36,856 nucleotides of DNA from Pseudomonadaceae bacterium (GTDB taxonomy: Bacteria; Pseudomonadota; Gammaproteobacteria; Pseudomonadales; Halomonadaceae). This document shows, one piece after another, positions 18,814 through 25,297 of the stretch (positions within the stretch are counted from its first letter, which is position 1; each line of letters starts with the position of its first letter). The notes beneath the pieces were generated by a model. The model saw only the letters and a program-made list of their open reading frames with translations, had not been told where the DNA came from and did no database searches. Made by a program: the position numbers and the translations under genes. The stretch covers positions 1 through 36,856 of the forward strand of contig JAAYGA010000168.1 in the NCBI GenBank assembly GCA_012727935.1, in the 5' to 3' direction.

Positions 18814-20175
18814 TTAACTGGCTGAAACGGGTTTGCGGCGGCGTGGGTTACGTCTTTTACTGCCTGATTTTTTAACCGGAGAGCGCCCTAAAGAAGCAAT
18901 AAGCTTATGTTGCTCTTCTTCGCTGGCTTCTTGAAAGGCTGTCCACCAAGCAGCAGCCCCTTCGGTTGCTTCGCCCGCTATTTCACGTAACAGTAAAAAG
19001 TCATAGGCAGCACGAAAGCGCGGTGTTTGTAGCATTACCCAAGCTTTTTTACCATTACGCTGCGGTAGCTTCAGCTGCAAGTCCCATATTTCACGCATGG
19101 GAAAAGAAAAACGTTTAGGAATAGTAATGTGTTGATTTTGCCTTTGCAGCAGCCTGTTTCCTGCTTGCTGCATGGCAGGAAAAGCGGGAACACCATTATT
19201 TTGCAAATCATTAAAAATTTGCTCTAACCCTGGCCAAAGTAAAGCAGCATATAAAAATGCAGGCGTAACAGGGCGGCCTTCGTGAATACGAAGATCAGTA
19301 TTTATCATTGCCTGTTCAACCATTTTTAAAGCCGTTGGGTTAGTTTTAAAGGCTTCATGGCTGGCAGGAAATAAAAATGCAAATAAACCGTATTGACGCA
19401 ACAGCTGAAAAGTAGCTAAAGCATGTCCAGCTAGAAATAACTTAAGCACCTCATCAAACATACGCGCCGGTGCCACCTGCAATAACAGGTTAGCTTGTTC
19501 ACTTAACGGGGCTTCAGTGTTGGTTTCTAACTTAAAGTTTAGCTTTGCTGCAAAGCGCACGGCTCGCAACATGCGAACTGGGTCTTCGCGGTAACGGGTA
19601 ACAGGGTCACCAATTAAGCGCAAAGTTTGGTTTTTTAAATCATCTAAGCCACCAGTGTAATCATAAATGGCTTGGTCATTAATATTGTAGTAAAGCGCGT
19701 TAATAGTGAAGTCACGCCTTAAAGCATCTTCTTCAATACAACCCCAAACATTGTCACGCAACAACATGCCTTCTTCACTCTGCCGAAGGCGCTTGTCGGC
19801 CACTTCTTGAGTTTTACCTCTAAAGGTTGTCACTTCAATAATTTCACGCCCAAAACGTACGTGAACAATGCGAAAGCGGCGACCAATCATACGGGCATTA
19901 CGAAACAGCTCAGTGACTTCCTCTGGGGTAGCGTCGGTTGCTACATCGAAGTCTTTTGGGTTCTTGCCCAATATACGGTCACGAATACAACCACCCACTA
20001 GGTAAGCTTGGAAGCCACTCTTTTGTAAGCGGTAAAGGACTTTAAGTGCTCCTTCGTGTAGTTCGCTACGTGAAATAGGATGCTCTGAACGGGCTAATAG
20101 GCGTAGTTGCGGTGTTTTCACTAGTGCCTTTTTGTTCATGCGAGTTTTAAGGTAGCTGGTAATTCCTTTAATCAT
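18814..20175 (-). CDS. pcnB: Poly(A) polymerase I
   Basis: PcnB adds A tails to RNA 3' ends, promoting decay. The class II nucleotidyl-transferase core is present: YLVGGCIRDRILGKNPKDFDVATDATPEEV with the catalytic Asp pair, the RRFRIVHVRFG strand, RRDFTINALYYN, and REDPVRMLRAVRFAAK. The C-terminus is very basic (SKRRNPRRRKP), as in E. coli. I start it at ATG 20175 (453 residues), because the track start at 20319 would read through the preceding RNA terminator; ATG 20139 is a further option, and neither has a clear ribosome site. First gene of pcnB-folk-pan cluster, directly after the CrcZ-like RNA. Confidence 0.93.
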   Translation of the reverse strand: MIKGITSYLKTRMNKKALVKTPQLRLLARSEHPISRSELHEGALKVLYRLQKSGFQAYLVGGCIRDRILGKNPKDFDVATDATPEEVTELFRNARMIGRRFRIVHVRFGREIIEVTTFRGKTQEVADKRLRQSEEGMLLRDNVWGCIEEDALRRDFTINALYYNINDQAIYDYTGGLDDLKNQTLRLIGDPVTRYREDPVRMLRAVRFAAKLNFKLETNTEAPLSEQANLLLQVAPARMFDEVLKLFLAGHALATFQLLRQYGLFAFLFPASHEAFKTNPTALKMVEQAMINTDLRIHEGRPVTPAFLYAALLWPGLEQIFNDLQNNGVPAFPAMQQAGNRLLQRQNQHITIPKRFSFPMREIWDLQLKLPQRNGKKAWVMLQTPRFRAAYDFLLLREIAGEATEGAAAWWTAFQEASEEEQHKLIASLGRSPVKKSGSKRRNPRRRKPVSAS

Positions 20176-20261
20176 TTTGACCCATGGCGCAAAAGAAAGA
20201 TGCAGCAGTTTAACTGACCTGCGAGGTAGGGCAAAGGCTGAATAGCATAATAGTATAAAAC

Positions 20262-20294
20262 AAAAAATGGGAAGGCTTGTGCCTTCCCATTTTT
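20262..20294 (-). terminator. Intrinsic terminator of the CrcZ-like RNA
   Basis: 14-base arms AAAAATGGGAAGGC and GCCTTCCCATTTTT around a four-base loop; on the minus strand the stem ends in ATTTTTTG. It lies upstream of pcnB and would close a transcript begun at the sigma-54 promoter near 20760. Confidence 0.93.
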
Positions 20295-20743
20295 GTCGAT
20301 TGATAGGTTGCGAATCCATTCTGCCTTTAGGGTGAAAGTTCTAGATCGCCCTGAACACGTACCACAGTCACCAAATCGCCAACTTATTATTATTTTTGTT
20401 TTTAATTGCGAGGGTTGACCATCTCGTATTCAAAACAATTTAGCCTCAGCTTGGACTTTTTCTAGGGTGCTTATTGTTGTTGTTCACCCTTTGGATGCAG
20501 TAGGCATTATTTTTGTTTTCGCCTTTTTACATCAGTTTTCGCTGAAGACCGGAGACCTTAGCTATTATTGTTGTTTTTAATGCTTTTAAGCTGCTTAGCC
20601 TTTTTTTGTTTTTATGTTGGCTAGTGTGCTGGTCGTTCACCAAGCTTCCTAATTATTCTTATTGTTGGGAGGCTGGTTCGGTCAGGCTCAGTATTGTTTT
20701 TGTTTTTTCTGAGTGGCTGACGCCGGTATTTTTGTTTTTCTTA
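20262..20743 (-). ncRNA. crcZ: CrcZ-like Hfq/Crc-titrating small RNA
   Basis: This gene-free stretch between cbrB and pcnB has the position of crcZ in Pseudomonas. Read on the minus strand, it contains about eight A-rich blocks built from AAN/CAA triplets: AAGAAAAACAAAAATA (20727-20743), AGAAAAAACAAAAACAATAC (20691-20710), CAACAATAAGAATAATTA (20650-20667), ACATAAAAACAAAAAAA (20601-20618), TTAAAAACAACAATAATAG (20562-20580), GAAAACAAAAATAATG (20505-20520), GAACAACAACAATAAG (20470-20485) and AACAAAAATAATAATAAG (20383-20400). Such motifs bind the Hfq distal face with Crc. A sigma-54 promoter and a strong terminator frame about 480 nt, near the roughly 400 nt known for CrcZ. Both ends are predicted, not measured. 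No coding frame is convincing here. Confidence 0.86.
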
Positions 20744-20752
20744 CTAAGTATT

Positions 20753-20769
20753 ATGCTGGATACGTGCCA
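20753..20769 (-). promoter_or_regulatory. Sigma-54 (-24/-12) promoter of the CrcZ-like RNA
   Basis: On the minus strand TTGGCACGTATCCAGCAT: TGGCAC at -24, then exactly five bases before the CAGCA that carries the -12 GC, matching TGGCAC-N5-TTGCA at the invariant GG and GC. Predicted start near 20743. It needs an enhancer-binding activator; CbrB is encoded just upstream. Confidence 0.8.
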
Positions 20770-20842
20770 AGTTTGTAAATTTCCTTATTAATCAATAGCT
20801 TAATCTTTGTTTTGGTTTTTTAGTGTTTGTTCAAACTGAAAG

Positions 20843-20892
20843 TGTTACCCCCTTTTCAGGCTTAAAACTGGTGTGTGGGTGTAACGGTAACA
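20843..20892 (-). promoter_or_regulatory. Candidate CbrB upstream activating sites
   Basis: TGTTAC (20843-20848) and the tandem GTAACG-GTAACA (20881-20892) on the plus strand form inverted half sites of the TGTTAC/GTAACA type I recall for Pseudomonas CbrB. They lie about 100-150 bases upstream of the predicted start, a normal enhancer distance. The spacing between half sites (38 or 32) is wider than the reported 14, so the exact operator is uncertain. Confidence 0.55.
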
Positions 20893-20913: not shown

Positions 20914-22356
20914 TCAACGTGCCGTGTTTGTTTTGCGTCTAGGAATGCCAAGTCGTTGGCGTCTTTCCCATAAGCATTTTCTGGAAATGCCTAGTTTTTT
21001 AGCCAGCTCTGTTTCGCTCAGCTGGTCTTCATTTTCTTGTACAAAGCGCACAAAATAATCTTCTAGTGAAAGGTCATCAGCAGGCAGGTGTGCTGGGTCT
21101 AAGTCTTCAGCAACTGCTGCTTTAAAGGGTTGTTGGGCGGTGTTGGCGCTAGAAACTGAATTGGCTGCTAAGCCAGTAAAGTTAACCTTTCTGGGTTGTT
21201 GAATGCTTTGAGGTAATTCTAAATCTTCAGCATGAAGTAGGGTGTCGTCGGCCAAAATAACCGCACGCTCAACCCTGTTTTCTAATTCACGCACGTTGCC
21301 CGGCCAAGAATAGGCTAATAGTGCATTGCGTGCTGATTTAGAAAAACGTGCCAGAGGTTTACCCAGTCGTTCACAGCTGGCTTTTAATAGGCTTTCAGCA
21401 ATCAGTAAAATGTCATCTTCACGTTCAGTTAGGCAGGGCAGCTCTAGTTCAATCACATTTAAGCGGTAATAAAGATCAAGACGAAACTTGCCTTGGTCTA
21501 CTAGGTTTTTAATGTCCCTGTGGGTTGCAGCAATAAGGCGAATGTCTACCTTTCTTGATTCAACAGAACCTAAACGCCGAATTTCACCTTCTTGCAGCAC
21601 CCTTAATAAACGCGCTTGGGCTTCAAGGGGCAGCTCGCCTATTTCATCAAGGAACAAACTGCCGCCGTCTGCGGCTTCAACTAAACCATTGCGGCTGGTA
21701 TTAGCGCCGGTAAATGCACCTTTTTCATGCCCAAACAATTCAGATTCTATTAGGGTTTCAGGAATAGCCGCACAATTCACACTAATTAAAGGCGCTTTGT
21801 GACGAGGGCTAAGGTTATGCAAAGCGCGTGCAACTAATTCTTTACCCGTTCCCGATTCACCTAAAATAAGCACCCGCGTATTAAAAGGGGCAATTTTTTT
21901 AATCTGCTGAAAAACCGCCTGCATTGCAGGGCTTTCACCAATCATGCCTTGCAAGCCAGTAGGTGTTGCTGCTAATTCGCTATTAGCTAAAGCTGGGGAA
22001 GCTTGTTGCTGGCGGTGCTGGTTAAGAATGTGGTTAACCGCAGAAAGCATTTCATCATGATCAAAAGGCTTAGCTATGTAATCTACAGCGCCTTGCTTCA
22101 TAGCGTCCACAGCAGAACGCAAGCTAGCGTAGCTGGTCATAATTAACACAGGTATTTCTTGGTTAATTAATACTGTACCCATTTCACCGGGTAGGCGTAG
22201 GTCGCTAATAATTAGATCAAAGCTTTGTGTTGCCAGTTCCTGACGTGCTTCAGGAACCGTACCTGCTTCAGTAATCTGAAAACCGTTGCGCTCTAACAAA
22301 CGTCTTAGTGCTGAACGAATAATGCCTTCATCTTCAACGATCAGTATTTTGCTCAT
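20914..22356 (-). CDS. cbrB: Sigma-54-dependent response regulator CbrB
   Basis: 480 residues of NtrC type. Receiver domain with Asp52 ([10 protein letters not shown]) and [13 protein letters not shown]+ domain with Walker A GESGTGKE, the sigma-54 contact loop GAFTGAN, and the Walker B and arginine-finger regions; a C-terminal Fis-type helix-turn-helix ([21 protein letters not shown]). The receiver stretch [10 protein letters not shown]...[29 protein letters not shown] is close to Pseudomonas CbrB. CbrB activates sigma-54 promoters for use of many carbon and nitrogen sources and crcZ transcription. It overlaps the end of cbrA by 23 bases, so the pair is co-expressed, and its likely RNA target follows directly. 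Confidence 0.95.
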
Positions 22357-25297
22357 TGTCGCTTGATGACTCCTGATAGGTTAGATCACTACTAGGTAGT
22401 GGAAAGCGGCAGCGAAAACAGCTACCGCTTTTAAATTCTGGGCTAGGGCTAAGAGCTTGAATTTGCCCACCGTGCTCTTCGACAATACTATAAACCAGCG
22501 CCAGTCCCAAACCTGTGCCTTCACCGGCTTGTTTTGTGGTGTAAAAAGGTTCAAACAAATGTTCTAAGTGTTGGGGTGAAATGCCCTGCCCATCGTCGTG
22601 TACTTCCAACAACACTTCCTGCCCTTGTTGGCGGCCAAGGCACAAGATTTTTCCACCCTCAACAGTGGCATCACAGGCATTAGCTATAAGGTTAACGAAA
22701 ATTTGCACTAGCCGTTGAGTATCGCCGGTAACATAAAGGTCTTCTGGGCAAGCATTTTCATACACCCTATTGCGGCCTTTGTGGCTAAGTGAAATTAAGC
22801 TGATGGATTCTTGTATTGCACCGCGCAGGTTAATCAGTTCAAACTTAAGGGTGTCGCTGTGCCGCCCCGCATGAGCAAAATTAACCAAAGATTGCACTAT
22901 GCTAGTAATGCGTTTAGTTAGTTGTAAAATTTGCTGGCTGGTTTCTTTAACAACTTCTGGCTCTTCAGCGTCGTAATAAAGGTTTTGAGCTAGCGAAGAA
23001 ATACCCGTTACAGGGTTACCTATTTCGTGGGCGACCCCTGCTGCTAAGCGGCCTATCGAAGCTAGGCGTTCGTTGTGCAGCAGTTCATTTTCTAATAACT
23101 TTAAGCTACTTTGGTCTTCAACCAGCAAAATGGTGCCGCCCATTAAAGTGGCTGGGTCGTCTTGCTGCGCCTTGTGCAAGCTTAACCAAGCTGTGCTGCC
23201 ATCGTTGTTTTGTAGAGGCTGGCGATAAACTTGCGAAGCTTCACCTTCTAAAAAACTATTCAGTAACTCGCCCCAAGGCGTTGGCAGGTGGCGAATTTTA
23301 GAGCCTATTGCCTGATCGCTGGCTAGGCCGGTTAGGTTTTCCATTGCACGGTTCCACAGCAACACTTCTTGGTCGCTGCCCAAAGTACAAATGCCAACAG
23401 GCAAATACATGAGTGTTTGGCGGTGGTGGCGGCGCAGTTTATCAAGTTCCCTTGCCATGCCGGTTAAGCGTGAACGGTAGTCTTCAAGGTGGCGTTCAAC
23501 GTGGTGAATGTCATTTTCACTGGGCTTATCTTGGCTTTGCCAAGGCAGATAACGGTCAACAATTTCCTGTGCAACAGCAGACCCCATTAACCCCGATAAA
23601 TTGGCTTGAATTTGACCACGCAGGCGGCGCAGCAGATAGGGCCTTGCATCGGCAGGGTCAATATTTAATTCAATTAGTGCGCGATTAACTTCCCTTTGCG
23701 CTGTTTCAGAGCCAAGTGGAATGCTGAGTAGGCGAATTAAATCGGCGCTGTCTTTGGCTTTCAACTGTAAACGTTTAGGGAAAAACAACGCATCCTGTGA
23801 ACAGGCTAAGGCACCTGCTTTCTCTTCTTCACTTATTTTGGTGAACAGCGACACAGTAATAAACAGCACAATATTGGCAGTGGTTGCTGCAAGGGTGATG
23901 TTGTGCCAATCGTCAATGCCTGTAAGCTGCAGTTTAATGCCAAACCCAGTAACCTGCTGAATGTTAAGTAGTAATGGAAAACCCAAGCCTACCCCCAGCA
24001 CTAAAAAGCCTGCTGCCAAGCCTACTAATAAGCCTTTACGGTTAGCAATGGGCCAGTATAAAAGTGCCAAAGTACCGGGCAAAAATTGCAGGGTGGCAAT
24101 AAAAGCAGACAAACCTAGCGTGGCCAGATCGTGTTCAATGCTAACCACTAGGTAAACAAGGTAGGCAATAAAAATTAATGAACCTATCAGCAAACGGCGC
24201 ATTCGTACCAGCCAAAAGTAAATATCAAAATCGGCAGGTGGTTGGTAAACGGCTAAAACTAAATGGTTAAGCACCATAGGTGCCAGTGCCAGCGTCATAA
24301 CAATAATGGTGCCGCTAGCCGCCGCTAAGCCAATAATAAAAGACACTAAACCCCAATAACCCCCCAATGAAAGGGTGGCATATTCAATAGGTAGGTTGCT
24401 GCCCAAGGCTTGGTGCGCCCAATAAATAACCGGCACAGGCAAAGCCAAGAGCAACAGGAAGATGGGCAGCATCCAGCTAGATTGCATCATGGCTTCTTCG
24501 GAAGGGTTTTCAGTAAAAATAATGTGAAAAATGTGCGGCATGGTTAGCGCCGTAGCAAAAAAGATTAGCAGCAGGGTGCGCCACTGGTTGTTTTCTAAAG
24601 GCTGCATGGCGGTGGTTAACGTGTCACTATTTTCGGTTAGCCAGTGTTCTAAACCGTCAAAGCTACCAAACACGCTGTAAAGGGTGAAGCCGCCTAAAGC
24701 TAAAAAAGCTACCAGCTTAACCAAAGATTCAAAAGCTATGGCAAATAACAGGCTTTCATGGCGTTCCCTTAAAGAAATGTGCCGCGCCCCAAATAAAATA
24801 GCAAACAGCGTAATAACCGCACAAAACACAAAGGCGAGGTGATAGGGCGAAGACTCATTGGTTAGTAGATAAATAACATCGCCAATGGCCTGAATTTGTA
24901 AGGCCAGCAGCGGCATACTGCCAAACAACAGCCCCAAGGTTACTAACATGCCAACCCAGCGGCTGCGGTAACGAAAGGCCAGTAGGTCGGCTAGGGAAGA
25001 CAGCTGATAAGTGCGAGCAAGGCGTAGCAAGGGCGAAAGCAATAGGGGTGCTAAAACAAAAATGCCAGCAATGCCAAGGTAATAGGTTAAATAGCCATAA
25101 CCATATTGATGCGCCAAGCCAAATGAGCCATAAAAAGCCCAAGCACTGGCATAAACACCCAGCGCCAATACATAAACTAAAGGATGCTTAACTAGCTTTT
25201 GTGGCAACCAGCCTTTTTCAACAACCCAAGCACAGGCAAAAAGTAAGGAAAGGTAGCCAACACCTAAGGCAAAAATTTGGGTAAGAGTGAAGCTCAT
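22334..25297 (-). CDS. cbrA: CbrA, transporter-sensor histidine kinase hybrid
   Basis: 987 residues, matching the about 983 of Pseudomonas CbrA. The first about 500 residues are a solute:sodium symporter-like domain with some 12-13 membrane segments, including conserved [27 protein letters not shown] linker and PAS domain (about 630-740) follow, then the H-box ([22 protein letters not shown], His in about residue 770) and the ATP-binding lid ([32 protein letters not shown]). In Pseudomonas the symporter part senses and takes up histidine while CbrA phosphorylates CbrB. Translation appears coupled to cbrX, whose stop is one base before the ATG. The transport substrate here is inferred only. 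Confidence 0.95.

Follow-up and report, generated by a model that had tools for sequence, protein, structure and literature searches.

A probable CbrAB-CrcZ circuit in a Halomonadaceae bacterium, with a two-site candidate CbrB operator and an enlarged RNA

Gene order and proteins at the locus

The present study analyzes a crcZ-like locus in the window, the whole stretch of 36,856 nucleotides of DNA from a Halomonadaceae bacterium. The locus lies entirely on the minus strand in the order cbrA-cbrB-RNA-pcnB-folK-panB-panC, the same gene order as in the Pseudomonas CbrAB-CrcZ circuit, with dksA upstream of cbrA on the same strand. The RNA thus stands between cbrB and pcnB on their own strand, where a CrcZ-type RNA would be expected. 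Features are as follows.

22334..25297, minus: cbrA, sensor kinase of 987 aa with HisKA, HATPase and PAS domains
20914..22356, minus: cbrB, response regulator and sigma-54 activator of 480 aa, Response_reg and Sigma54_activat domains
20916-20914, minus: cbrB stop codon
20892-20887, minus: candidate CbrB subsite F1, TGTTAC, exact
20886-20881, minus: TGTTAC-like copy CGTTAC (5/6) directly after F1, role uncertain
20848-20843, minus: candidate CbrB subsite R2, GTAACA, in its extended form GGTAACAC at 20849-20842
20802-20790, minus: IHF-like site TAAGCTATTGATT, 9/9 consensus positions, agreeing perfectly with the consensus WATCAANNNNTTR on the other strand
20770-20754, minus: predicted sigma-54 promoter TTGGCACGTATCCAGCA, GG-N10-GC, score 24/25
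20258..20743, minus: CrcZ-like RNA of ~486 nt, with a predicted start 12 nt past the -12 C
20439-20345, minus: 3' stem module ATTGTTTTGAATACGAG ... CGTGTTCAGGGCGAT around one A-rich loop
20294-20263, minus: predicted intrinsic terminator of the RNA, 14-pair stem, loop of 4, T tail
18814..20175, minus: pcnB (TIGR01942)

Homology to relatives sets in only at about residue 49 of the mechanical open reading frame 18814-20319, which puts the likely start of pcnB near 20175. CbrA is full-length and ~51% identical to Pseudomonas CbrA across residues 1-966. Adjoining it, CbrB combines a receiver, an AAA+ domain with GAFTGA and a Pseudomonas-like C-terminal segment; overall identity to CbrB of Pseudomonas fildesensis is 60.7%, and the 15 residues of the C-terminal recognition segment are identical.

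An earlier sequence-only reading had described a self-contained circuit of sensor, activator and RNA output contiguous on one strand, with CbrB and its GAFTGA loop encoded directly before the half sites. Its letters, positions and distances, including half-site gaps of 38 and 32 bases, are all correct, with everything on the minus strand, and cbrB ends 21 bases ahead of the first half site. The contiguity holds, and congeners, other family members and many further families of the order show it too. Self-sufficiency claims too much, as the promoter would need RpoN and probably IHF, and the output would act through Hfq and Crc. RpoN, Hfq and Crc are encoded elsewhere in the genome (an assembly of 403 contigs, estimated to be 87.5% complete). 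Crc (L132) lies between rph and pyrE; it is ExoIII-like and closest to Pseudomonas Crc, its best PDB matches (4jg3, 4f1r) being P. aeruginosa Crc, and its GDMN-type nuclease motif reads GTWN. Exonuclease III is encoded separately. Hfq (L133:1344-1601) is Pseudomonas-like except for F replacing Y25 of the distal face, a conservative change.

The promoter and the candidate CbrB operator

TGGCAC and the -12 GC had been read as standing at the canonical distance, and TTGGCACGTATCCAGCA does have the GG-N10-GC pattern of the sigma-54 promoter that a CrcZ-type RNA would have. Its score was reached by none of 1000 dinucleotide shuffles of the 594-base gap that follows cbrB. Taken by itself, such a score is no rarity, as the 36.9-kb window contains six 17-mers scoring at least 23. 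The promoter is conserved in the genus alignment: mean identity over the gap is 55% among eight congeners, with invariant islands at GTGTTACC, GGTAACAC and TGGCA. The predicted IHF site lies at -32 from the promoter, most relatives have an IHF-like match at -31/-32, and in P. putida IHF acts as a helper of CbrB at crcZ (PMC6296734). A sigma-70 scan returned one site, no more than in shuffles.

The sequence-only reading had also suggested that operator geometry may have shifted, the half-site spacing of 32 or 38 bases being set against about 14 in Pseudomonas. That suggestion falls away, for the F1-to-R2 distance in the window had been compared with the F1-to-R1 distance in Pseudomonas. The CbrB site there consists of three subsites, F1-R1-R2, arranged as TGTTAC-N12-14-GTAACA-N15-19-GTAACA (PMC8871633; PMC6296734), so that 33-39 bases are expected between F1 and R2, and the 38 bases in the window fit. 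Measured from the promoter 17-mer, the loci of Pseudomonas, Serpens, Gilvimarinus and Cellvibrionaceae have F1 at -122/-123, R1 at -101 to -103 and R2 at -79 to -81. R2 is exact in all 29 family loci having CbrB, at -77 to -80, and most of these loci have F1 44-45 bases ahead of R2. Neither the window nor, as a rule, the Halomonadaceae (29 loci) show a GTAACA-like hexamer at -100 to -103. The family was assigned from L016, a member whose sequence equals that of Litchfieldella anticariensis (L051) over the part compared. Judged from these alignments, the change relative to Pseudomonas is the loss of the middle subsite R1, with the positions of F1 and R2 fixed across the order. In P. putida, each CbrB subsite is individually dispensable (PMC6296734).

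The evidence for promoter and operator differs in weight. TGTTAC-N33-39-GTAACA occurred in none of 1000 dinucleotide shuffles of the gap, and a genome-wide count of the exact operator pattern gave one, where by our own estimate ~1 would be expected by chance, so its uniqueness is weak evidence. Such counts alone are weak; positional conservation in relatives is strong evidence for the predicted elements, and promoter, F1, R2 and the IHF-like site keep fixed relative positions throughout genus, family and order, in loci that include named Pseudomonas, Halomonas and Gilvimarinus.

CGTTAC was considered as the true partner of R2, at a gap of 32 bases, and rejected as the main site, because family-wide conservation is seen for F1 alone; this second copy is retained by some members of the genus and not beyond it, and the overlapping hexamer is GTAACA in L008, L014 and L015. 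Separately, an NtrC-like dyad, TGCCCCAnnATGGCGCA, is common to Halomonas-type loci with CbrB and lies at about -102, where Pseudomonas has R1. It is individually weak, yet its position is constant throughout the loci (L016, L018-L020, L022, L024-L026, L035, L037, L038, L046, L051 and L058).

The RNA and its 3' stem module

When the rule used to place the RNA start was applied to Pseudomonas fildesensis, the predicted position and the first base of the Rfam CrcZ match were 2 nt apart, and a terminator is found at the equivalent place in many relatives. The RNA contains eight (A-R-N)n stretches with n of at least 4, of the type bound by the Hfq distal face, and their mean pairing probability is 0.14 vs 0.66 elsewhere. 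AAnAAYAA occurs 18 times in the gap, vs 1.8 +/- 1.4 in 1000 dinucleotide shuffles. The RNA folds better than shuffles (z -5.2), and eight congeners give a consensus structure in which hairpins with A-rich loops follow one another in a chain. Compensatory changes occur in 22 of 89 pairs, a number that none of 500 shuffles equalled. Sliding that consensus by one column lowers the paired cells from 95% to 41%.

The score against the Rfam CrcZ model (RF01675) was 17.4 bits, below the gathering cut-off of 95; Litchfieldella scored 14 and the Pseudomonas control 349.6. By position, promoter and eight A-R-N stretches, the predicted RNA is nevertheless a CrcZ orthologue, one outside the Rfam model as curated. 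A weak CrcZ match was also seen elsewhere in the genome (C230, 14 bits), and the same search gives matches below the cut-off in 9 of 14 control genomes.

Toward its 3' end the RNA carries a module that is nearly identical in the 29 family loci, in which ATTGTTTTGAATACGAG ... GTATTCARGGCGAT forms an 18-pair stem. G-U pairs are kept and there is almost no covariation, which together with the near-identity points to constraint on sequence and not on pairing alone. The module was absent from the Pseudomonas, Gilvimarinus and Cellvibrionaceae loci compared. Of 392 genomes of the order, 18 contain an exact 17-mer from it, all Halomonadaceae with one copy each, and the genome of the window has no second copy.

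Proposed circuit, alternatives and distribution in relatives

Patterns detected are consistent with this locus being the crcZ of a Halomonadaceae bacterium that works as a CbrAB-driven Hfq/Crc decoy circuit, a reading we consider very probable. Anatomy, orthology, conservation, RNA structure and the Hfq, Crc and RpoN genes were computed here; signal, binding, transcription and titration are carried over from Pseudomonas and Azotobacter. A carbon-related signal sensed by CbrA would lead CbrA to act on CbrB, which would bind F1 and R2 just past its own gene, and IHF may bend the DNA between the half sites and the promoter. When preferred carbon is short, CbrB would drive sigma-54 RNA polymerase to produce the terminated RNA of ~486 nt, whose A-R-N stretches on hairpin loops and linkers may bind the Hfq distal face together with Crc. 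The RNA would then titrate Hfq/Crc off catabolic mRNAs and so lift carbon catabolite repression, as in the titration model for Pseudomonas CrcZ (PMC4063720). Counting against this explanation are the low Rfam score, the missing R1, F in place of Y25 in Hfq, and two genomes (G030, L013/L157; G053, L043/L162) in which CbrB is present and a crcZ-like RNA was not found beside cbrB or pcnB. In three further genomes where cbrB and pcnB were not found side by side (G043, G037, G045), a promoter with R-type sites and A-rich motifs stands before pcnB.

An alternative explanation could be that the RNA arises mainly by read-through from cbrB and processing, with the sigma-54 promoter as a minor booster. 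This would agree with Azotobacter vinelandii, where a cbrB-crcZ co-transcript is reported to yield functional processed CrcZ (PMC6292655), and with the finding of no terminator-like site on the minus strand between cbrB and the promoter. It would not account for promoter, operator and IHF-like site being conserved islands in an otherwise diverged gap, and so under selection, and the Azotobacter promoter is itself fully RpoN-dependent (PMC6292655); we regard read-through as the main source as unlikely.

A second alternative, in which the promoter answers to a different sigma-54 activator, chiefly NtrC, and the half sites have no part in it, may be judged against relatives that have no CbrB. Eleven family genomes (L144-L154, seven genera, in which the losses are possibly not independent) encode only NtrC-family paralogues, with 41-46% identity in matches that take in the receiver and at most 53% in those confined to the AAA+ domain. 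A sigma-54-like promoter and 4-8 A-rich clusters are still present upstream of pcnB in every one of the eleven, and the 3' module in nine. Some have strong NtrC-like palindromes upstream (TGCACTATTTTAGTGC in G288, TGCACGCCTTTAGTGC in G021; 0/300 shuffles as good), consistent with such an activator. The best NtrC-like site in the window, however, matches at 8/14, not above chance (290/300 shuffles as good), and the F1/R2 pair occurs in none of the eleven. Its absence there, together with the presence of R2 in 29/29 loci with CbrB, ties the half sites to CbrB by association, and control of the window's promoter by NtrC or its like appears very improbable. That the promoter serves pcnB, the next gene on the strand, and that the A-rich stretch is merely its long leader can scarcely be credited, given the strong terminator at a conserved place in between and an A-R-N array and hairpins conserved as RNA with compensatory changes.

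The closest known system is the CbrAB-CrcZ circuit of Azotobacter and of Pseudomonas (P. aeruginosa, P. putida), which has in common with the locus its gene order, sigma-54 promoter, positions of F1 and R2, IHF-like site, A-R-N array, terminator, and Crc and Hfq in the genome. Unlike that circuit, the Halomonadaceae locus is without R1, has an extra conserved 3' stem and is missed by the Rfam model, which misses Halomonadaceae CrcZ-like RNAs. The RNA is also larger, ~486 nt with eight A-R-N stretches vs 407 nt and six in CrcZ of PAO1. RsmY/RsmZ and CsrB/CsrC have GGA, not A-R-N, as their motif and a target other than Hfq/Crc, and are not homologous to CrcZ. The decoy principle is the same, repeated motifs in an RNA titrating an RNA-binding repressor, an analogy drawn in PMC4063720, where the six A-R-N stretches of PAO1 CrcZ are described.

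In the review literature CbrAB is held to be confined to Pseudomonadaceae (PMC8871633, PMC6296734). As read from these genomes, Halomonadaceae and many other families of the order have the predicted circuit with its operator positions unchanged, and it is probably ancestral in the order, older and more widespread than described. Among the papers that an open-access search listed for crcZ or cbrB with Halomonas, none had a title or abstract describing the circuit there. What appears new is that a further family has this circuit, with an operator of two sites and a larger RNA, which opens it to study in halophiles used in industry. Genera naturally without CbrB, in which F1/R2 are lost and the RNA is kept, offer a direct comparative test of which sites belong to CbrB.

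A further possibility, which we put forward tentatively and think somewhat doubtful, is that Halomonadaceae CrcZ has two functions, an Hfq/Crc decoy and a 3' stem with its own protein or RNA partner, and that in relatives without CbrB the promoter has been re-wired to another sigma-54 activator, probably NtrC. If so, nitrogen and not carbon status would set catabolite repression in those relatives. Finally, one genome (G047, L158) has two tandem sigma-54 promoters, at ~-1069 and -563 from the pcnB match, with A-rich motifs after each, possibly reflecting a duplication of crcZ.
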